Part shown: positions 2,840 to 24,828 of the stretch, one piece after another
Numbering within the stretch: the stretch's first letter is position 1
Layout of the letters: each line of letters starts with the position of its first letter
From: Hyphomicrobiales bacterium
GTDB lineage: Bacteria > Pseudomonadota > Alphaproteobacteria > Rhizobiales > NORP267
Direction: 5' to 3'
NCBI GenBank assembly: GCA_021775855.1
Contig: JAJFGZ010000004.1
Location: forward strand, 47,132 to 111,131
DNA length: 64,000 bases
The notes under the pieces: generated by a model
The model's database searches: none
What the model was told of the DNA's origin: nothing
The model's input: only the letters and a program-made list of their open reading frames with translations
Made by a program: the position numbers and the translations under genes

Positions 2840-3995
2840 AAAACCGGGTCCCGAGCCCTTCGGTGTCTATGTTCATTGGCCATTCTGCGCCGCCAAATGC
2901 CCCTATTGCGATTTCAATTCTCACGTGCGCCACCAACCGGTGAATCAACAAGTATTTGCTGACGCCCTGTGCACTGAGATCACAACAACCGCCCGGCGGG
3001 TGCCAGGCAGGCGGGTTGAGAGCGTGTTTTTTGGTGGTGGCACTCCTTCGCTCATGGAGCCGGACACCGTCGCCCGGATACTTGAATGCATCGCCGACAA
3101 CTGGGCCATGCCGGATGACGTCGAGGTGACCCTCGAAGCCAACCCCACCAGCGTCGAAGCGACGCGTTTTCGCGGCTACGCCAAAGCCGGTGTCAACCGC
3201 TTGTCGCTTGGCGTTCAGGCGCTCGAAGATTCGGCCCTTCAAGCGCTCGGGAGGTTGCACAATGTGGACCAGGCGCTTGGCGCGCTGGCGATCGCCAACG
3301 AAAACTTTACTCGAGTATCAATTGACCTGATCTACGCCCGCCCCGGCCAGACATTGTCCCAGTGGGAGGACGAACTTGCCCGGGCCCTTGCGCTCGGCGT
3401 CGGGCATATCTCGCCTTACCAGCTGACCATCGAAGCGGGGACACCGTTTGCCGATCTCGAGGCACGTGGCAAATTGCGGCAATTGCCGTCTGACCTCGCG
3501 TTTGACATGTTCGCGGCGACCAACCGGTTGTGCGCGAGCGCCGGACTGCCTGCTTACGAGGTTTCCAACCATGCCCGCCCCGGCGAGGAGAGCCGGCACA
3601 ATCTGATCTACTGGCGCTACGGGGAATATGCCGGGATCGGCCCTGGCGCCCACGGCCGTCTGATTTCCGAGGATCACCGTTGGTCGACGGCAACGGAGTT
3701 TCACCCCGAAACCTGGCGGCAAAAAGTTGAAGACCAGGGATCAGGTCTGGTGACCGACGACCGGCTCAGCCCGGCGGAAGCGTCGAAAGAATATCTGTTG
3801 ATGGCGCTGCGCCTCTCGGAAGGCCTCAATCTTGCGCGTTATGCCTGGATTGCTGGAGCGCCGCTGGAAAAATCCCGCTACCTGCCTCTAATCGATGATG
3901 GGTTCCTCACCCTCGATAAAGCGGGATACCTGTCAGCAACCGACAAGGGCCGCCCGGTTCTGAACAGCGTCATTGCAGCAATAGCGGGGCTCTAA
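2826..3995 (+). CDS. hemW: Radical SAM HemW (oxygen-independent coproporphyrinogen III oxidase-like)
   Basis: [21 protein letters not shown] radical-SAM CxxxCxx[11 protein letters not shown]; in-frame ATG at 2826 overlaps the rdgB 3' end. Confidence 0.92.
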
Positions 3996-5182
3996 AACGC
4001 GCGCGGACCAAACGCCTGCGGGGCCGGTTGCAAGACCCTGTTTCCGCCGCCTTCGGTTACTTCCATGATCGACAATCCGCGTTCGTTGAGCCCATTGGTC
4101 AGAAAGCGGAAAATCCCGTCGACGCCCTGAAACCCGCTGGGATTGGTCAACGCCGCATCGGTGAAGCGCTGATTCTGAGGTTGGGTCGCCAGGGTGGATA
4201 CCAGATTGACTGCATCGTAGGCAAGGCTCGCCAGCCGGGGCGGTTCTGACCCGTAGGTCGCCTGGAACTGGTTCGAGAATTCCTGAAACCCGGTCGGATC
4301 AGCGGACGGGTACCAACCGCCTTTGAGCGAAGGCTCGCGGCGCGCCCGTTCGTCATCCCACTGCCCCGAGCCAAGAAATTTGACCATATCGGTCTTGACC
4401 CCGTTGATAGACAAAAGTGGTACCAGCGAAGGAATAACGTTGGGCCCGTCGGGGATCAGAATCGCATCGGCCTGGGGCGTATCGCCGTTGGCCACTTCCG
4501 ATATCCGTTGTGCCGGTTCCATCATCCCCTGGCGGTCGAGCGGGTAAGTCTCGATCGCCACCACCTGGCCACCATTGCGTACAACCGCCTGCTGGAACGC
4601 GCCCTGGACAATCGTGCCGTAGGCGTTTTGGGGCAGGATCGCTGCGAACGATCGTTTTCCCTGCGCGACCGCGTAGGCGATAATCTGGTTGATATCGTTC
4701 TCCGGCAGGAAGCTCAGCAGATACACCCCGCGCCCGGCCACATTGGAATCGGTGGAGAAGGCGATCATCGGTATATTTGCCTGGCGGGTGATCGCGCTTG
4801 CGGCGGAAACGGATTCCGCGAATACCGGCCCGATTACCAGTTCAGCACCTTCACTCACGAGTTCAGTTGCAGCCGCCGCCGCGCCGGCTGCGGTGCCCTG
4901 GGTATCTTTCGGGATCAGAATGATATCGGGATTATTGAACGTGAACAGGGCAAGCTCGGCGGCCTCTTTGAGCGCCTTGGCGGTGCGCCCGGCATTGCCG
5001 TTCGCGGTCATTGGCAACAGCAGGCCGATTTTGACGGTGCCCGAGCCGATGGCGTCGAATTGCGCGCTCTGGCCGGTTCCAATATTGCCGAAACCGCCCC
5101 TGTTGAAATTGCCTGTACCGCACGCGGCAAGCAATATGGCAAAGCCCGCAAGGACTAGACCTATCGGGAAAAATCTTTTCAT
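3992..5182 (-). CDS. Penicillin-binding protein activator / ABC-type periplasmic-binding lipoprotein (LpoA-like)
   Basis: MKRFFPIGLVLAGFAILLAACGTG lipobox; VKIGLLLPMTANGNAGRTAKALKEAAELALF periplasmic-binding fold; sits next to rsmI and yraN as is common. Confidence 0.82.
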   Translation of the reverse strand: MKRFFPIGLVLAGFAILLAACGTGNFNRGGFGNIGTGQSAQFDAIGSGTVKIGLLLPMTANGNAGRTAKALKEAAELALFTFNNPDIILIPKDTQGTAAGAAAAATELVSEGAELVIGPVFAESVSAASAITRQANIPMIAFSTDSNVAGRGVYLLSFLPENDINQIIAYAVAQGKRSFAAILPQNAYGTIVQGAFQQAVVRNGGQVVAIETYPLDRQGMMEPAQRISEVANGDTPQADAILIPDGPNVIPSLVPLLSINGVKTDMVKFLGSGQWDDERARREPSLKGGWYPSADPTGFQEFSNQFQATYGSEPPRLASLAYDAVNLVSTLATQPQNQRFTDAALTNPSGFQGVDGIFRFLTNGLNERGLSIMEVTEGGGNRVLQPAPQAFGPRAF

Positions 5183-15364: not shown

Positions 15365-18286
15365 GTGCTTGCATGCTGGGGTATAGTCCGAAAGATGTAT
15401 GCTAGGCATATACTGAAAGGTTTTCGAATACTACCAATGCACAATATCAAACAGCCCATGATTGCCGACGATACCGACCGCGTTGCGTACGAAGCGGAGC
15501 CCTTGGGGGCGAATGCCAAATTGGGAGTCTCCAAAAAAGCAACTGCTGCTGGCAAACCCGCTAAGACCAAGACAACCCCGATGATGGCCCAGTTCTTCGA
15601 GATCAAGGCCAACAACCCGGACAGTTTGCTTTTCTACAGGATGGGCGACTTTTACGAGATGTTTTTTCAGGACGCTGAAGTGGCGTCCCGCGCGCTCGGT
15701 ATCGCGCTGACAAAACGCGGCCAGTATCAGGGTCTGGACGTACCGATGTGCGGGGTCCCGGTCCATGCTGCCGACAACTACCTGCAAAAGCTGATCCGGC
15801 TTGGCCACCGGGTCGCGGTCTGCGAGCAGCTTGAAGACCCGGCGGATGCCAAAAAGCGTGGTGCGAAGGCGGTCGTGCGCCGCGATGTGGTTCGGCTGGT
15901 AACGCCTGGAACCCTGACAGAGGATTCATTGCTGGACGCGCGCCGGAATAATTTTCTGGCTGCAGTGGCGGGTGTCAGGTCCGGTGACAGTGAGACCGCG
16001 TTCGCAATCTCCTGGGTCGACCTTTCCACGGGGGCGTTCCATGTGGCTGCGACCGATAAGTCCCGTATCGCTTCCGATCTGGCGCGCCTGGAGGCCAGTG
16101 AAGTTCTTGTGGCCGAACCGCTCTTTGAGGATCCGAATTGGCGTGAACTCTGGATAGACGGGGATCTCCCTGTCGTGCCGTTGACCACGGATTATTTTAA
16201 CTCCTCCTCTGCCAAGGCCAGGCTGAGCAAATATTTCAACGTCGCGACGTTGGATAGTTTCGGCGCCTTCAGCCGCGCCGAGCTCGCCGCCAGCGGCGCC
16301 ATCATTGCCTATGTGGACGCGACCCAGGTCGGCCAGCAGGCCAGCATTTCACCGCCCCGGCGCGAAAATGCCAGCGACGTTATGGAGATCGACCCGGCGA
16401 CCCGCGCCAACCTGGAACTTTTCCGAACCACAGCCGGCGACCCGCGCGGCAGCCTGTTCGCGGTCGTCGACCAGACAGTAACGCCGGCGGGAGCGCGCAA
16501 GCTGGCGAGCCGGATGGCAAGCCCGCTGACGCTCCCCGAACGCGTCAACCGGCGCCTCGATGCGGTTTCCCATTTCACCGATCAGGACGGGTTGCGTGAC
16601 AAAGTCCGCCGCGATCTGGCGGCATCCGCAGATCTGGCCCGCGCCTTGTCGCGCCTGGCCCTTGGGCGCGGTGGTCCACGCGATCTCGGCGCGCTGCGAG
16701 ACGGCATCCGCGCGGGGTCTCTCTTGCGCCAGCATTTCGATCAGGCCCCCGGGCTCGCGCCGCCACCCGACGAGTTGGTCAAGCTAATGAGTGATTTGCA
16801 GGGTCCGGATCCGGATACGCTCTCAAGATTTGCCGGCACTTTAGGCGCGACGCTGGACGATGAACTACCGGCCTTTGCCCGAGATGGCGGGTTCGTCCGG
16901 GCGGGGCATGATACAGGCCTCGATGAAGCATGTGCCCTGCGTGACGAAAGCCGGAAAATCATCGCCACCCTGCAATCCACCTACCGAGAAGCAACCGGGA
17001 TCAAGGCGCTCAAGATCAAACACAACAATGTGCTCGGGTATTTCGTCGAGGTGCCAGGCCAACACGGATCGCGGATGCTGGCCGCACCGATGAATGAGAC
17101 TTATATCCACCGCCAGACCCTGGCGAACGTTTACCGGTTTACGACAACCGAGCTTGGCGAACTGGAATCCCGCATTGCGGCGTCAGCAGAACGCGCGCTG
17201 GCCATCGAGATGGACATTTTCGATTCATTGACCGCACAGGCATTGACCCTCGGCGAGGCCATCAAGACGGTTGGCGATGCCATGGCGGCGCTTGATTGCC
17301 ACGCGGCTCTGGCCGAACTGGCGCGGACCGAGAATTGGTGCCGCCCGGGGGTGGACGATTCCACAAGTTTCGAGATCGAAGCGGGCCGCCACCCGGTTGT
17401 CGAAGCGGCGTTGAAGAAATCCAGCGGAGCGTTCATTGCCAACGATAGCAATCTCGGTGCTGATCCGAATGATGAAACCGGGCGTCAAATCGCCGGGGCA
17501 ATTTGGCTTTTGACCGGTCCGAACATGGCCGGTAAATCGACCTTCCTTCGCCAAAACGCCATCATCGCCATTCTCGCACAAACGGGTTCATTCGTTCCGG
17601 CAAAATCCGCCCGGATCGGGATTGTCGACCGGCTGTTCAGCCGCGTCGGTGCGTCCGACGATCTCGCCCGGGGGCGCTCGACCTTCATGGTGGAGATGGT
17701 CGAGACGGCGGCGATCCTCAACCAGGCGGGGTCTAGATCCCTGGTTATTCTGGACGAAATCGGGCGCGGTACGGCGACGTTTGACGGCCTGTCGATTGCC
17801 TGGGCCACGGTCGAACATCTCCACGAGGTCAACGGCTCGCGGGCGCTGTTCGCCACCCATTATCACGAATTGACCAGTCTCGCGGAAAAGCTCCAGCGGC
17901 TCCAGAATGCCACCATGAAGGTCAGGGAATGGCAGGGCGATGTGGTTTTTCTCCACGAAGTGGTGCCTGGTGCTTCTGACCGTTCCTACGGGATCCAGGT
18001 GGCGCGACTTGCAGGCCTGCCAGCCACCGTCGTTGCCCGCGCCCGCGAGGTACTGGACAAGCTCGAAGCGAGCGACAAAGCTAACGCCGGGGCGCGGCTC
18101 AACCAGGACCTGCCGCTTTTTGCGGCCAGCGTCACGAGCCCCCCTGTGCGAACCGGAAATCCTGTCTACCGCGATATTTGTGACAAACTCGAAACCCTGA
18201 TCCCGGACAATTTGACGCCCCGCGATGCCCTTGAAATGCTGTACGAACTGAAAGGCATGTTGCGCGACAATGAGGGCAGGGGATGA
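15365..18286 (+). CDS. mutS: DNA mismatch repair protein MutS (start may be 15437)
   Basis: TPMMAQFFEIKANNPDSLLFYRMGDFYEMFFQDAE; LTGPNMAGKSTFLRQNA Walker A; DEIGRGTATFDG. Confidence 0.96.
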   Translation: MLACWGIVRKMYARHILKGFRILPMHNIKQPMIADDTDRVAYEAEPLGANAKLGVSKKATAAGKPAKTKTTPMMAQFFEIKANNPDSLLFYRMGDFYEMFFQDAEVASRALGIALTKRGQYQGLDVPMCGVPVHAADNYLQKLIRLGHRVAVCEQLEDPADAKKRGAKAVVRRDVVRLVTPGTLTEDSLLDARRNNFLAAVAGVRSGDSETAFAISWVDLSTGAFHVAATDKSRIASDLARLEASEVLVAEPLFEDPNWRELWIDGDLPVVPLTTDYFNSSSAKARLSKYFNVATLDSFGAFSRAELAASGAIIAYVDATQVGQQASISPPRRENASDVMEIDPATRANLELFRTTAGDPRGSLFAVVDQTVTPAGARKLASRMASPLTLPERVNRRLDAVSHFTDQDGLRDKVRRDLAASADLARALSRLALGRGGPRDLGALRDGIRAGSLLRQHFDQAPGLAPPPDELVKLMSDLQGPDPDTLSRFAGTLGATLDDELPAFARDGGFVRAGHDTGLDEACALRDESRKIIATLQSTYREATGIKALKIKHNNVLGYFVEVPGQHGSRMLAAPMNETYIHRQTLANVYRFTTTELGELESRIAASAERALAIEMDIFDSLTAQALTLGEAIKTVGDAMAALDCHAALAELARTENWCRPGVDDSTSFEIEAGRHPVVEAALKKSSGAFIANDSNLGADPNDETGRQIAGAIWLLTGPNMAGKSTFLRQNAIIAILAQTGSFVPAKSARIGIVDRLFSRVGASDDLARGRSTFMVEMVETAAILNQAGSRSLVILDEIGRGTATFDGLSIAWATVEHLHEVNGSRALFATHYHELTSLAEKLQRLQNATMKVREWQGDVVFLHEVVPGASDRSYGIQVARLAGLPATVVARAREVLDKLEASDKANAGARLNQDLPLFAASVTSPPVRTGNPVYRDICDKLETLIPDNLTPRDALEMLYELKGMLRDNEGRG

Positions 18287-21087
18287 TCAAGATCGCCCGG
18301 GATTTTGGCGAAGTTGTTGACGCCACGCGGCTCCGCGAAGACCTCACGGCGATCGCCAACGAGACCCGTGGTGGTGATACTAAATTGCGCAAAGCAGTTC
18401 TCGAGCGGCTTAAACAAGCACTGGGGGATGGTCGCGATACCGCCCAGCGCTGGTTGGAGGAAGACGGCGACGGCGCGACCTGCGCCAAATTTATATCCAG
18501 GCTCGAAGACGAGCTGATCAGCGTGATCTACGATTTCACGGTGACCCACGTCTACCAAATCCGTAATCCGACTGCCGGGGAACGGCTGGCTATTGTCGCG
18601 GTCGGTGGCTACGGCCGGGGAACCCTGGCGCCTGGCTCCGATATCGATCTATTGTTCCTGCTGCCCTTCAAGCAGACCGCGTGGGGCGAGAGCATCACCG
18701 AGTATATCCTCTATATGCTCTGGGATATGGGCCAGAAAGTTGGCCATGCGACCCGGACGATCGAAGATTGTATCCGCCTCGCCAAGACCGACACCACCAT
18801 CAAGACGGCAATCCTGGAAGCTCGCTTTATCTGGGGCGACAGCGATCTCTTTGACGACTTGCACGTGCGCTACGACAAACGGGTCATCAAAGGTACCGGC
18901 GCGGAATTTATCGCCGCCAAGCTCGCCGAACGCGACGTGCGCCACCGCAAATCCGGCGAATCCCGTTACCGGGTCGAGCCCAACATTAAGGACGGCAAGG
19001 GCGGCCAGCGCGACCTCCATACCCTGCTATGGATTGGTAAATATTATTACCGGGTCAACGATATTTCCGAACTTGTAGCGGCGAAGGTATTTACGCCCGC
19101 CGAGCGCCGCCGGTTCGAGAAATGTGACGAGTTCCTCTGGACTATCCGATGCCATCTACATTTCCTCGCTGGCCGCGCTGAAGAACGCCTGACGTTCGAT
19201 ATGCAGCAGGAAATGGCCCGCCGGCTCGGATATACGGCGCACCCCGGCGTACGCGACGTGGAACGCTTCATGAAGCATTATTTCCTGGTCGCCAAGGAAA
19301 TTGGTGATCTGACCCGCACCCTGTGCACGGCGCTTGAGCTGCAGCATGTTAAAACCATTGGAAAACTCGGCCTGTTGATCACCCCGTTCAAGGCCTTGCG
19401 TGATCGCCGCTTTAAAAGTGCCCCGGGATTCGCCCGTCGGATGGGACGCCTGACGATCGACCACGAGAATGTATTTCGCGACGACCCCGTCAACCTGATC
19501 CGGATGTTCTGGATCGCCGACAAAAATAGCCTGCTGTTTCACCCGGACGCCATTCGGCTCGCCCGGCGCTCGCTCCGTCTGGTCGACGACGATTTGCGCA
19601 ACAATCCGAAAGCCAACAAACTGTTTGTGAAAATCCTGACATCCGGCCGTCAGCCCGAGGCGATTTTGCGGCGCATGAACGAGACCGGCATTCTCGGACG
19701 TTTTATCACGGATTTCGGCCGCATCGTTTCATTGATGCAGTTCAACCTCTATCACCACTATACCGTCGACGAGCACCTTCTCCAGGCGATCGGGTTTCTC
19801 TCCGAAATCGAGCGCGGCGAGTTGCAGGACGCACACCCCCTGTCCCACGACATCGTCCATCAGCTTGAAAACCGCCGGGTACTGTATGTCGCCGTGCTGC
19901 TCCACGATATCGCCAAAGGCCGCCCCGAGGATCATTCGATTGCGGGCGGTCGGGTTGCCCGCGAGCTTTGCCCCCGCCTCGGCCTGAGCGCCGCCGAAAC
20001 CGAGACCGTGGCCTGGCTCGTCGAGCAGCATCTGGTGATGAGCGCGTTTGCCCAGTCGCGCGACCTCAACGATCCGAAAACCATCCAGGACTTTGCCGAC
20101 ATCGTGCAAAGCCCTGAACATTTGAAGCTACTGGTGATTTTAAGTGTCGTGGATATCAAGGCCGTCGGACCTGGGGTCTGGAACGGCTGGAAGGGGCAAT
20201 TATTGCGCACGCTTTATTTCGCGACCCTGCCGGTCCTTGACGGCAGCCATATTGTTGCGAGCCCCGCCGAGCGGATCGAGGCGGCGCAATCCGAGCTCGC
20301 AGATGCGCTCGCTGAAGATGGCTGGCAGGCAAACGAGGTCGAACCATACCTGACCCGCCACTACCCGGCCTATTGGTTCAACGTTCCGCTTGCGCGCAAA
20401 CGGACCCATGCCAAGCTGGTGCGTTCGGCCATTTCGAATAGCACTGCCCTGGCGTGCGAAGCCTTTACTGACGCCTTTATGGAAATCACCGAATTGTCGG
20501 TCTACGCCCCCGACCATCCAAGACTGCTCTCGATCATTGCCGGCGCCTGCGCGTCGGCTGATACCAATATTGCCGGGGCAGCGATTTTCACGACCCGCGA
20601 CGGCATGGCGCTGGATTCGATTTTCGTCAGCCGCGAATTTACCGAATCGAGAGACGAGTTGCGACGCGGCGGTCGAATCGCGGCGACCATCGAGAGCACC
20701 CTGATTGGCGATACCCGGCTGCCCGAAATCGTCGCGATCCGGGATCAGGCCAGAGCCAAACTGAAGGCCTTCCGGGTCGAACCAAGGGTCGTAATCACGA
20801 ACAACTGGTCGGACAATGCAACCGTGATCGAGGTGAATGGTCTCGACCGGTCCGGTTTGCTGTACGATCTCACAACGGCGCTCGCGGACCTCAATCTGAA
20901 TATCGCTTCGGCCCATATCGCGACCTTCGGCGAGCGTGCAGTGGACGTGTTTTACGTCACTGACCTGATCGGCCAAAAAGTCGTCGACAAGGCCCGCCAG
21001 AAACGGATCAGACAGGCCCTGCTCAACCTGCTCAAAGCGGCAAAGTCGCCAGCGAAAAACAATATGGAAAAAGCGGACGTGGACTAA
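18283..21087 (+). CDS. glnD: [Protein-PII] uridylyltransferase / uridylyl-removing enzyme
   Basis: VGGYGRGTLAPGSDIDLLFLLP nucleotidyltransferase; HD domain LHDIAKGRPEDHS; two C-terminal ACT domains; ATGA overlap with mutS. Confidence 0.95.
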   Translation: MIKIARDFGEVVDATRLREDLTAIANETRGGDTKLRKAVLERLKQALGDGRDTAQRWLEEDGDGATCAKFISRLEDELISVIYDFTVTHVYQIRNPTAGERLAIVAVGGYGRGTLAPGSDIDLLFLLPFKQTAWGESITEYILYMLWDMGQKVGHATRTIEDCIRLAKTDTTIKTAILEARFIWGDSDLFDDLHVRYDKRVIKGTGAEFIAAKLAERDVRHRKSGESRYRVEPNIKDGKGGQRDLHTLLWIGKYYYRVNDISELVAAKVFTPAERRRFEKCDEFLWTIRCHLHFLAGRAEERLTFDMQQEMARRLGYTAHPGVRDVERFMKHYFLVAKEIGDLTRTLCTALELQHVKTIGKLGLLITPFKALRDRRFKSAPGFARRMGRLTIDHENVFRDDPVNLIRMFWIADKNSLLFHPDAIRLARRSLRLVDDDLRNNPKANKLFVKILTSGRQPEAILRRMNETGILGRFITDFGRIVSLMQFNLYHHYTVDEHLLQAIGFLSEIERGELQDAHPLSHDIVHQLENRRVLYVAVLLHDIAKGRPEDHSIAGGRVARELCPRLGLSAAETETVAWLVEQHLVMSAFAQSRDLNDPKTIQDFADIVQSPEHLKLLVILSVVDIKAVGPGVWNGWKGQLLRTLYFATLPVLDGSHIVASPAERIEAAQSELADALAEDGWQANEVEPYLTRHYPAYWFNVPLARKRTHAKLVRSAISNSTALACEAFTDAFMEITELSVYAPDHPRLLSIIAGACASADTNIAGAAIFTTRDGMALDSIFVSREFTESRDELRRGGRIAATIESTLIGDTRLPEIVAIRDQARAKLKAFRVEPRVVITNNWSDNATVIEVNGLDRSGLLYDLTTALADLNLNIASAHIATFGERAVDVFYVTDLIGQKVVDKARQKRIRQALLNLLKAAKSPAKNNMEKADVD

Positions 21088-21105: not shown

Positions 21106-22218
21106 CTATTCCGCGCTGGAGGGGCCGGAGCCCGACTCCATCGCCCAAAGCGCTGCCGCGCCATCGAATAGACGCTGCATTATCTGCATTTCGGTGACCC
21201 CCAGGCGGACACTTGGTGAAATGTCAACGAGCCCGCCTTCGCCGGCGTCGGAATGTTCACCCCCCGCCCCGCGCACGGCCAGTCCCAGAGATTTGGCGTC
21301 TTCTTTTACGCGCGACAGGTCCTGGCCGTTTTTGGTGAGGCCCGGCAACCGCATATGCAGGCTGGCCCGCATCCCGGCGCCAAGGTTGGTCGGGCAGCTG
21401 GTCACATTGCCGTAAACCGGTGATGTGGCGAAGGCCGGCAGCAGCTCCTGCAACCGGCCAAGCCCGTCATGGAGCCGCTTAAACAGCGCGTTCAGATTGC
21501 CGCCGGTCTGCATCGCCATGATGCGCAAATGGTCTTCTTCGCCCACCCAGACCAGAAAGTCCTGTGCCCCCGAGACATACATTCCCCGCCCATACGGCCA
21601 ATCCGCACTGATCCCGGCCACATTAAGATACCGGTCCCCGCTCATATCTTTGAACATCTGGTGGGCGGCAACCCGCCGATCATATTCGGCGCCATCAATT
21701 TCGTACGGAGATCCCGGTGTGATCGACAGATATTGACCGCCATAGTTCGTGTCTTTGCAGAGATGCGTGAACGCTTCTGCGGCAAGGTCTTCTAGTGCCA
21801 CGCGCTGGTCCCGGGTCATGGCGCCGGGGAGCGGAAATGAACCTAGGTTGCGCGCCACCCGGACTCGCATGGAGACCGCTTCAAGGCGAGGATCGATTTT
21901 GCCTAGATCGCAGGATGATTTGCTGGAATCCCAATCGTGGGCCTGGGCAATTTGCACGTCTTCCGGTATCCCGTGAAAATCACGGATCAGGGGGTCCAGC
22001 ATCGGCGCAAACAGATCGTAATCTTCCGGCGACATGGCGTAAGCGCCCATCTGGCTGTCGCTGTTTTCGATCCCCGTTGCAATTATTTTCATGAGCCGCT
22101 GGCGCAGGCCCGCGTCCAATCCGCGGAAATAATCAGCGTTGAAATGACGTGCCATCAGATTGTCAGGATTGGTATTTCTGATGCTTTGGAGTGTGGAAAT
22201 CACCTGTTCGGGCGTCAT
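21106..22218 (-). CDS. Two-domain ATP:guanidino phosphotransferase (phosphagen kinase, arginine-kinase type)
   Basis: GIENSDSQMGAYAMSPEDYDLFAPMLDPLIRDFHG (N-domain/GS loop); MRVRVARNL; DFLVWVGEEDHLRIMAMQTGG; TSCPTNLGAGMRASLHMRLP; VRGAGGEHSDAGEGGLVDIS. Confidence 0.93.
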   Translation of the reverse strand: MTPEQVISTLQSIRNTNPDNLMARHFNADYFRGLDAGLRQRLMKIIATGIENSDSQMGAYAMSPEDYDLFAPMLDPLIRDFHGIPEDVQIAQAHDWDSSKSSCDLGKIDPRLEAVSMRVRVARNLGSFPLPGAMTRDQRVALEDLAAEAFTHLCKDTNYGGQYLSITPGSPYEIDGAEYDRRVAAHQMFKDMSGDRYLNVAGISADWPYGRGMYVSGAQDFLVWVGEEDHLRIMAMQTGGNLNALFKRLHDGLGRLQELLPAFATSPVYGNVTSCPTNLGAGMRASLHMRLPGLTKNGQDLSRVKEDAKSLGLAVRGAGGEHSDAGEGGLVDISPSVRLGVTEMQIMQRLFDGAAALWAMESGSGPSSAE

Positions 22219-22375: not shown

Positions 22376-23272
22376 ATGACGGTCACGACACCCGAACCAG
22401 GCGCGGAGAAAACCGGCGCCAGCCCAATTTTGGGAATCGGCCTCATGATCGCGGCGATGCTTCTCATTCCGATGGTCGACGGCGCGGCGAAATATTTAAG
22501 CTCCACCCATTCACCGCTTTTCATCGGTTGGGCCCGGTACGCGGTTGCGGCGCTCATTGTCCTGCCCGCTGCCGTTTATAAACACGGGTCCCAATGTCTC
22601 CCCCGGTCAAACCTCGGCGCGCATTTTCTGCGAACTATTTTCCTGATGGCGGCGATGACCTGCTACTTCATTTCGATCTCGCTTATTCCCCTGGCAACGG
22701 CCATCAGCGCCTATTTCGTCGGCCCGATCATCGCCACATTGTTGGCAGCGATGATTTTGGGCGAGCGGCTAACCTGGACAAAGATTCTGGCCTTGGGGCT
22801 TGGGTTTTCCGGGGTGATCCTGATCGTACGCCCGGGGATCGATTTTGACCCGGCGATTCTGCTGGCGTTGGCAAGCGGTGTGTTGTTCGGGCTGTATATT
22901 GTCGCCACCCGGCATGCATCCCGGACCAGCGACCCGCTCAGAACTCTGGCTTTCCAGTGTCTAGTCGGGGCATTAATTCTGGCCCCCCAGGCCGTCTGGT
23001 TCTGGTCATGGCCGACCCCCGATCAGCTGTACCTATTTGCCGGTATGGGATTGTTTTCAGCCGTAAGCCACTTTCTCTCGATCGCCGCTTTCCGTCTTGC
23101 GGAAGCGTCTACCCTTGCGCCGCTGGTCTATGTGGAGTTGATTGCTACCGTCGCGATCGGATTTATCTTCTTCGCTGAAATACCAGGCTTGACCGTTTGG
23201 GTAGGCGCAAGCGTGATTGTCGCCGGTGGGCTGTTGTTGATCCGGCGACCGCGGAGTGAAAACCCTTTATGA
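22376..23272 (+). CDS. DMT superfamily (EamA-type) transporter
   Basis: About 10 TM segments; duplicated EamA-like architecture (PLATAISAYFVGPIIATLLAAMILGERLTW...SAVSHFLSIAAFRLAEASTLAPLVYVELI). Confidence 0.87.
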   Translation: MTVTTPEPGAEKTGASPILGIGLMIAAMLLIPMVDGAAKYLSSTHSPLFIGWARYAVAALIVLPAAVYKHGSQCLPRSNLGAHFLRTIFLMAAMTCYFISISLIPLATAISAYFVGPIIATLLAAMILGERLTWTKILALGLGFSGVILIVRPGIDFDPAILLALASGVLFGLYIVATRHASRTSDPLRTLAFQCLVGALILAPQAVWFWSWPTPDQLYLFAGMGLFSAVSHFLSIAAFRLAEASTLAPLVYVELIATVAIGFIFFAEIPGLTVWVGASVIVAGGLLLIRRPRSENPL

Positions 23273-24828
23273 GCATGCTTCGATCCTTCGCAACCGTCGG
23301 TGGGTTTACATTGGGCAGCCGCGTGCTCGGTTTCGTCCGTGATATCCTGATCGCCAACATCCTTGGTACCGGGACCGTTGCGGACACATTTTTTGTCGCC
23401 TTCCGGATTCCAAACCTGTTCCGCCGCCTGTTTGCCGAAGGTGCGTTCAACGCAGCCTTTGTGCCGCTATTCGCCAAACAACTTGAGGGTGAGGGGGAAA
23501 GCGCGGCGCGTAAATTCGCGAGTGAATCGCTCAATATCCTGCTGGCTGCGCTCCTGGTGACGACGGCTTTGGCTGAAATTTTCATGCCCTGGCTGATGTA
23601 TGTCATCGCCCCTGGCTTTGCCGGCGATCCGGATAAACTCGACCTGGCAGTGCTGTTGACCCGGATCACCTTTCCCTACCTGTTCGTAATTTCGCTCGTG
23701 GCGTTATTGAGCGGGGTCCTCAATTCGCTTGGCAAATTTGCAGTCGCCGCTGGCGCGCCCCTGCTGCTCAATATCGTATTTATTCTGGTCCTTGGGATGC
23801 TTGCTTGGATGAACGCCCATGAAACCGCGTTTGCCGGCAAAGCCCTGAGCTGGGGGGTCTGCGTTGCCGGGATATTGCAGTTGATCATGCTCTGGGGCGC
23901 GGCCCGCCGGTCCGGAATGGCGCTGACTATCGCCCGGCCCAGGCTTACACCCGCGGTCCGCGATCTGATCCGGCTTGGTATTCCAGGCATGATTGCCGGC
24001 GGCGTCACCCAGATAAACCTCCTGGTCGGTACAATGATCGCGACCCTGCAGGCGGGTGCAGTTTCGTATCTCTATTACGCCGACCGGATTTATCAACTGC
24101 CCCTCGGGGTGGTCGGCGTTGCCATCGGAATCGTGCTGTTGCCCGATCTTTCGCGTCGGTTGCGTGCCGGAAAAGAACAGGAAGCCAGCCAGATCCAAAA
24201 CCGGGCACTGGAATTGTCGATGCTGTTGACGATCCCGGCAGCCGTCGCCCTGATCGTTATCCCGACCCCGATCATCTCGGTCTTATTCGAGCACGGTGCC
24301 TTTCAGATCGAGGATACAGCCCCTACGGTCTGGCCTCTGACAGCATTTGCAACCGGGTTGCCGGCTTTCGTGCTGATCAAGGTCTTTTCGCCCGGATTTT
24401 TCGCCCGCGAAGATACCCGAACCCCGATGATCTTTGCGGGTATTTCGGTCGCGATCAATATTTCCGGAAGCCTCACTTTGTATTTTCTCATGGGGCATAC
24501 CGGCATCGCTATCGCAACGTCATTCGCCGGCTGGATCAATGCAGGCCTGCTCGGGCTGGTATTGTACCGGCGTGGCCAGTTCCGCGTCGATTACGGACTG
24601 CGGTCGAGGTTGCCGAAGATCCTCCTCTCCAGCGTTATTATGGGCGTGGCCCTCGCCTTGATGATGCAGCTGTTAGGACCCTGGCTTGAAGCTGACCAAC
24701 TTCTTTTCATCCGCATCGCCGCGCTTACCGCACTGATCGGCAGCGGCGTGGCGGTCTTGGCGGTTTCGCTTCTGGTAACCGGGGGTGCCGACCCGGGTGT
24801 AATAAGCCGGCAATTGTTCCGGCGCTGA
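23269..24828 (+). CDS. murJ: Lipid II flippase MurJ
   Basis: MLRSFATVGGFTLGSRVLGFVRDILIANILGTGTVADTFFVAFRIPNLFRRLFAEGAFNAAFVPLF. Confidence 0.96.
   Translation: MSMLRSFATVGGFTLGSRVLGFVRDILIANILGTGTVADTFFVAFRIPNLFRRLFAEGAFNAAFVPLFAKQLEGEGESAARKFASESLNILLAALLVTTALAEIFMPWLMYVIAPGFAGDPDKLDLAVLLTRITFPYLFVISLVALLSGVLNSLGKFAVAAGAPLLLNIVFILVLGMLAWMNAHETAFAGKALSWGVCVAGILQLIMLWGAARRSGMALTIARPRLTPAVRDLIRLGIPGMIAGGVTQINLLVGTMIATLQAGAVSYLYYADRIYQLPLGVVGVAIGIVLLPDLSRRLRAGKEQEASQIQNRALELSMLLTIPAAVALIVIPTPIISVLFEHGAFQIEDTAPTVWPLTAFATGLPAFVLIKVFSPGFFAREDTRTPMIFAGISVAINISGSLTLYFLMGHTGIAIATSFAGWINAGLLGLVLYRRGQFRVDYGLRSRLPKILLSSVIMGVALALMMQLLGPWLEADQLLFIRIAALTALIGSGVAVLAVSLLVTGGADPGVISRQLFRR

Follow-up and report, generated by a model that had tools for sequence, protein, structure and literature searches.

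Phosphagen systems belong to textbook animal physiology, in which invertebrate arginine kinase stores spare ATP energy as phosphoarginine. Free-arginine kinases have also been published from the bacteria Desulfotalea psychrophila, Myxococcus xanthus, Moritella and Sulfurovum, and the origin of the bacterial enzymes is still debated, one view holding them to be ancient and the other to have been taken from eukaryotes (PMC6429109). We analysed a 64,000-nucleotide stretch of DNA from a marine alphaproteobacterium (the window), which carries a gene of this type. Since bacterial arginine kinases have already been published, the gene is one more representative, and an expected one, of an enzyme family already known; set beside the four published enzymes by description rather than by sequence, its putative product resembles them as a free-arginine kinase in a bacterium, although none of their hosts is alphaproteobacterial. 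The literature searched, with key specialist papers outside its coverage, yielded no description of an alphaproteobacterial arginine kinase family, and we make no claim to a first report.

The arginine kinase (AK; a phosphagen kinase) gene occupies positions 21106..22218 of the minus strand, with its ATG at 22218 and its stop codon at 21106-21108, and is recognized from its open reading frame and translation, Pfam matches and fold. The original prediction placed this 370-residue frame exactly but left the strand unstated; the plus-strand reading of the same interval contains stops. A GGAG sequence lies 9 nt upstream of the ATG on the minus strand, the frame is intact, and GC (0.59) and GC3 (0.68) are like those of the neighbouring genes. 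The source assembly holds a single copy. No sigma-70 consensus promoter was found around the gene, and a terminator search of the same surroundings returned a candidate at chance level only. An alphaproteobacterial host, as had been supposed, agrees both with the syntenic mutS-glnD-murJ-trpS neighbourhood and with the nearest named homologues, which are mostly from Hyphomicrobiales.

Profile searches with ATP-gua_PtransN and ATP-gua_Ptrans matched both domains, the N-terminal helical domain (PF02807) at residues 19-79 (21982..22164, minus strand; 42.7 bits against a cut-off of 25.7) and the C-terminal catalytic domain (PF00217) at residues 147-362 (21133..21780, minus strand; 167.5 bits against 22.4); both were also found in 42 of 42 aligned AK homologues. 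The top sequence matches in the PDB are arginine kinases, with E values down to 3.7e-109, and arginine, taurocyamine and creatine kinases head the ranking, with McsB at its end. An AlphaFold model built with 42 homologues (pLDDT 94, pTM 0.90) retrieved in Foldseek, over its full length, Paramecium tetraurelia AK3 (7ews; TM 0.90), followed by the Limulus transition-state complex (TM 0.83) and then other arginine kinases. The phosphagen-kinase fold, comprising both domains, thus spans the whole length of the protein, with TM scores of 0.8-0.9 to phosphagen kinases in the PDB, so that the two-domain ATP:guanidino phosphotransferase originally proposed is borne out by profile scores and predicted fold alike.

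Among enzymes of known structure Paramecium AK3 is the closest, being not only the top fold match but also the best single-domain sequence match (279 bits), and the signatures SMR.RVARN and WVGEED are common to both proteins. The two nevertheless share only 38% identity, 7ews has Ser at the Y68 position where the window enzyme has Tyr, and the ciliate enzyme lies on a sister branch. The animal arginine kinases (Limulus 1m15, Litopenaeus 4bg4) likewise have the two-domain fold, all the catalytic residues and the same GS-loop length, but are only ∼32-34% identical to the window enzyme and fall on the opposite side of the tree. McsB shares the catalytic domain superfamily and the core residues, whereas it lacks the N-terminal domain, has another C-terminal extension and sits on a long branch.

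We compared the active site with that of Limulus AK, using a reference sequence that is letter-for-letter identical to PDB 1m15. Every residue equivalence that had been proposed by eye was upheld in the multiple alignment (Limulus/window): in the guanidino-specificity (GS) loop S63/S55, G66/G58 and Y68/Y60; at the nucleotide site R124/R118, R126/R120, R229/R232, R280/R284 and R309/R316; and in addition E225/E228, C271/C275 and E314/E321. The named catalytic and arginine-binding residues are invariant over 73 bacterial sequences, save for one Ala at S55. The roles of these positions in binding nucleotide and arginine we take as established from Limulus AK structures, conservation alone being tested here. 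The GS-loop core DSQMGAY (residues 54-60; 22039..22059, minus strand) has the same length as DSGVGIY of Limulus AK, and the loops align without a gap (NSDSQMGAYAMSPEDY vs NLDSGVGIYAPDAESY), giving a short, AK-type loop with S63, G66 and Y68 kept. The reactive cysteine C275 (Limulus C271; 21394..21396, minus strand) is invariant in the 73 bacterial sequences, as is the E321-H322 pair of the second specificity loop (Limulus E314-H315; 21253..21258, minus strand), which is V-D in creatine kinase. Limulus G64 and R312 are replaced by Q56 and G319 in the window enzyme.

Glu at the E314 position had been read as pointing to arginine over creatine. It does exclude creatine, and creatine kinase is ruled out by Glu321 (Val in creatine kinase) together with the short GS loop (longer in creatine kinase); however, Glu is also found in taurocyamine kinase 4wo8 and in McsB, so that arginine is not proved by this residue. 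We base the preference for arginine instead on the GS loop, the whole active site and phylogeny. The bacterial clade has an arginine kinase, 7ews, as its nearest relative of known structure, with the animal arginine kinases standing on the opposite side. Loop type and this phylogenetic bracketing make arginine the best reading, even though sequence cannot prove a substrate. Domains, predicted fold, active-site residues, GS loop and bracketing together indicate that the window protein is very probably a two-domain arginine kinase (EC 2.7.3.3 type) of monomer length that belongs to a bacterial phosphagen-kinase family.

Three other accounts of the protein were weighed against this one. A phosphagen kinase acting on another free guanidine that the cell either synthesizes or imports (taurocyamine, agmatine, lombricine or a marine guanidino osmolyte) would also fit the Glu at the E314 position, which is common to taurocyamine kinase; Q56 and G319, in the GS and second loops, depart from Limulus AK, and non-arginine phosphagen kinases occur in unicellular organisms (PMC6429109). 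Such a substrate nevertheless seems improbable given the AK-length GS loop with S63, G66 and Y68, unlike that of taurocyamine kinase (GALLP-R) or creatine kinase, the identity of the closest solved relative as an arginine kinase, and the presence of arginine in every cell. It is far less credible still that the protein is an McsB-like protein-arginine kinase, tagging proteins for degradation. The C-terminal half does match McsB models weakly, with PDB McsB chains at ∼67 bits, but NCBIfam McsB scores of 45-103 bits fall far short of the cut-offs of 381-679 and the match is confined to that half. Moreover, unlike McsB, the window protein carries the N-terminal domain, and its chain stops shortly past the catalytic domain, whereas that of McsB runs on; in the tree the two are set apart by a long, fully supported branch, and no mcsA, ctsR or clpC was recognized among the neighbours examined. 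The earlier argument against McsB therefore holds on domain content, profile scores, tree and predicted fold. A patchy distribution and shifting genomic sites could be taken to mean that the gene is a decayed or non-functional acquisition retained by chance; this too is most improbable, since every aligned full-length homologue has an open frame and the active-site residues are kept down to 40% identity, conservation and open frames that together imply purifying selection.

For the window arginine kinase we thus infer catalysis, arginine as substrate and ATP buffering. The two domains would close over ATP-Mg and free L-arginine, with R118, R120, R232, R284 and R316 holding the phosphates and E228, C275 and E321 the guanidinium, while Y60 and the rest of the GS loop would hold the amino-acid end of arginine. 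The γ-phosphate would then pass reversibly between ATP and arginine, such that phosphoarginine would accumulate at high ATP and regenerate ATP at low ATP, acting as a stand-alone buffer. The buffer role is proposed because it is the known role of phosphagen kinases, and a stand-alone enzyme is consistent with the lack of a conserved operon partner. An operon hypothesis was rejected after ORF clustering across ∼80 homologous loci, where neighbours are shared only among close relatives (at most 5 loci); the AK neighbours in the window recur at none of these loci. AK expressed in Escherichia coli or yeast gives better survival of low-pH stress (reviewed in PMC6429109), and by analogy survival at low pH is a plausible benefit for a bacterium carrying the gene.

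In the phylogeny, which had been proposed as a check on the McsB question, the window enzyme falls among bacterial AKs and not inside McsB. The bacterial AKs form one clade (support 95/89), and Paramecium AK3 and the Kaiserbacteria AK together (100/100) make up its sister group, although the tree program flags long branches there and the exact position of the ciliate enzyme is consequently not firm. Outside the bacterial and ciliate group (96/86) are McsB and the arginine kinases of animals. Nested as it is in the bacterial clade, the window gene gives no sign in this tree of an animal origin. Organism groups are intermixed inside the clade, and in the best tree the window AK groups with L041, L008, L009 and L025 (87/92), apart from its congeners L011 and L049; a tree joining it to the congener AKs is not rejected by the AU test (p 0.34).

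The genomic context argues for movement of the gene. Gene order in the window is mutS-glnD-[AK, EamA]-murJ-trpS. On the left of the insertion, glnD (PII uridylyltransferase; 18283..21087, plus strand) converges on AK with 18 bp between the stops; on the right lies murJ (lipid II flippase; 23269..24828, plus strand), whose start is overlapped by an EamA-family (DMT) transporter gene (22376..23272, plus strand; Pfam EamA 111.4 bits) divergent from AK. The transporter gene shares the glnD-murJ insertion with AK and may be functionally linked to it or have arrived with it. Since glnD and murJ are adjacent, without EamA between them, in the two congeners as well as in two further genera of the family (G001, G002, G003 and G005), the window carries an extra segment of ∼2.2 kb consisting of AK and EamA. 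The congener AK lies instead between nadD and rsfS, so AK sites differ within one genus. In the window genome contigs end at this second site, one in nadD and one 238 bp upstream of rsfS; the 236 bp before rsfS show no similarity to AK and contain a short reading frame starting with LLR, as is found near the end of congener NadD (STLLRATRDMKERT). The nadD-rsfS site of the window genome is thus probably empty of AK.

Sequence identities tell a similar story when AK is set against GlnD. Identity to the window for AK (and, in parentheses, GlnD) is 77% (57%) for L041, 77% (58%) for the Afifella MAG L008, 74% (52%) for the Anderseniella MAG L010, 71% (45%) for Marinosulfonomonas L017, 65% (32%) for Cocleimonas L025, 58% (32%) for the gammaproteobacterium L048 and 56% (33%) for Desulfuromonas L052; L012 and L021, short contigs labelled Deltaproteobacteria/Myxococcota that may be mis-binned, were excluded from the argument. 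Within the genus the relation is reversed: the congeners are 75% and 71% identical to the window in AK and 77% in GlnD, and to each other (G001-G002) 82% in AK and 94% in GlnD, 10 ambiguous residues in one congener AK lowering its figures somewhat. Because AK outpaces GlnD within the genus and yet, between distant lineages, is by far the more similar of the two, acquisition or relocation of AK through horizontal transfer between bacteria is well supported by these comparisons. The horizontal acquisition first suggested is in keeping with the AK and EamA insertion, the different congener site and the excess of AK over GlnD identity in distant genera.

Vertical inheritance within the genus with mere relocation, and no transfer between lineages, would account for the presence of AK in all three genomes of the genus, for window-congener identities near that of GlnD, and for a three-genome clade that the AU test leaves standing. 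We consider it rather unlikely, as AK evolves faster than GlnD in the genus while other lineages show 74-77% identity in AK against 52-58% in GlnD, the best tree draws the window AK away from its congeners to the four loci named above, and none of the three further genera sampled from the family has the gene. Transfer between bacteria therefore remains our preferred reading, while the AU test (p 0.34) falls short of proving that the window lineage acquired the gene independently of its congeners. Foreign composition as a mark of recent arrival was rejected, GC and GC3 of AK matching those of its neighbours; the transfer was consequently not recent, or the donor genome was similar. As to vehicles, a search for carriage on mobile elements gave no AK match in IMG/VR viral contigs. 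Phage carriage was dismissed because the phage matches are McsB-like and cover the C-terminal half only, and plasmid carriage because the sole full-length plasmid relative is a divergent gene from a ciliate endosymbiont. In a Rhizobiaceae MAG, two near-identical IS3-like transposase pairs (L073:1160-2286 and 3817-4943) lie upstream of AK, one adjoining it, and are a possible vehicle.

The AK N-domain was found in three of three genomes of the genus, none of three other family members sampled (all from other genera) and 6 of 61 relatives. In even samples, the domain was present in 4 genomes out of 399 for the phylum and in 2 out of 387 for the class, both counts including the source genome of the window. 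A scan of species-representative genomes nevertheless returned 88 related stretches, of which 80 were retained, mostly from Hyphomicrobiales, Rhodobacterales and Rhodospirillales MAGs, with a minority from some Gammaproteobacteria, one Desulfuromonas, one Mariprofundus and one Kaiserbacteria. Carriers in cultivation include Aliiroseovarius subalbicans (locus L070). Phylum-wide family searches gave 1 match in 297 genomes for the phylum of L052 (Desulfuromonas) and 2 in 237 for that of L021 (Polyangiaceae). The gene is thus rare per genome, yet belongs to a coherent, sizeable bacterial family; the original description of sporadic bacterial cases was right about rarity, but a picture of few cases is too narrow for a family with 88 related stretches in one scan. 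The bacterial family is larger and more mobile than the accessible literature describes.

These observations lead us to a tentative proposal, which we hold with less than even confidence, that, in marine bacteria, the capacity for phosphoarginine buffering is accessory and mobile. The AK family, distinct from the animal enzymes, would have passed repeatedly, as a lone gene, between Hyphomicrobiales, Rhodobacterales, Rhodospirillales and certain other bacteria, gammaproteobacteria included. The ciliate AKs, lying on the bacterial side, would imply gene transfer between bacteria and ciliates. If free-living bacteria do carry intact, exchanged AKs, phosphoarginine ATP buffering would be a selectable accessory function in marine microbes, and the larger bacterial set with its ciliate sister is direct test material for the debate between an ancient and a eukaryote-derived origin.

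Three further kinases are divergent or linked to ciliates. A very divergent phosphagen kinase, ∼30% identical to the window AK, is encoded at L091:4492-5418 (minus strand) in the 1.3-Mb alphaproteobacterial genome G389; its N-domain match is strong (77.5 bits), whereas the R229 position is occupied by Thr and the GS loop contains Ile/Ser, and in the tree its branch, a very long one, is on the animal side. The plasmid NZ_CP110821.1 of Candidatus Bandiella woodruffii, a member of Rickettsiales and endosymbiont of the ciliate Euplotes, encodes a phosphagen kinase annotated as a hypothetical protein (L097:2824-3921, plus strand), which has all the catalytic residues and adjoins transposases. Finally, an AK is encoded on a 37-kb contig of a Candidatus Kaiserbacteria MAG (L087:4821-6104, plus strand), beside neighbours that look like lepA and hisS. 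It is 61% identical to Paramecium AK3 (7ews) and thereby much closer to that enzyme than to any other bacterial AK, a likeness suggesting either that the gene passed between ciliates and CPR bacteria or that the contig is misassigned.
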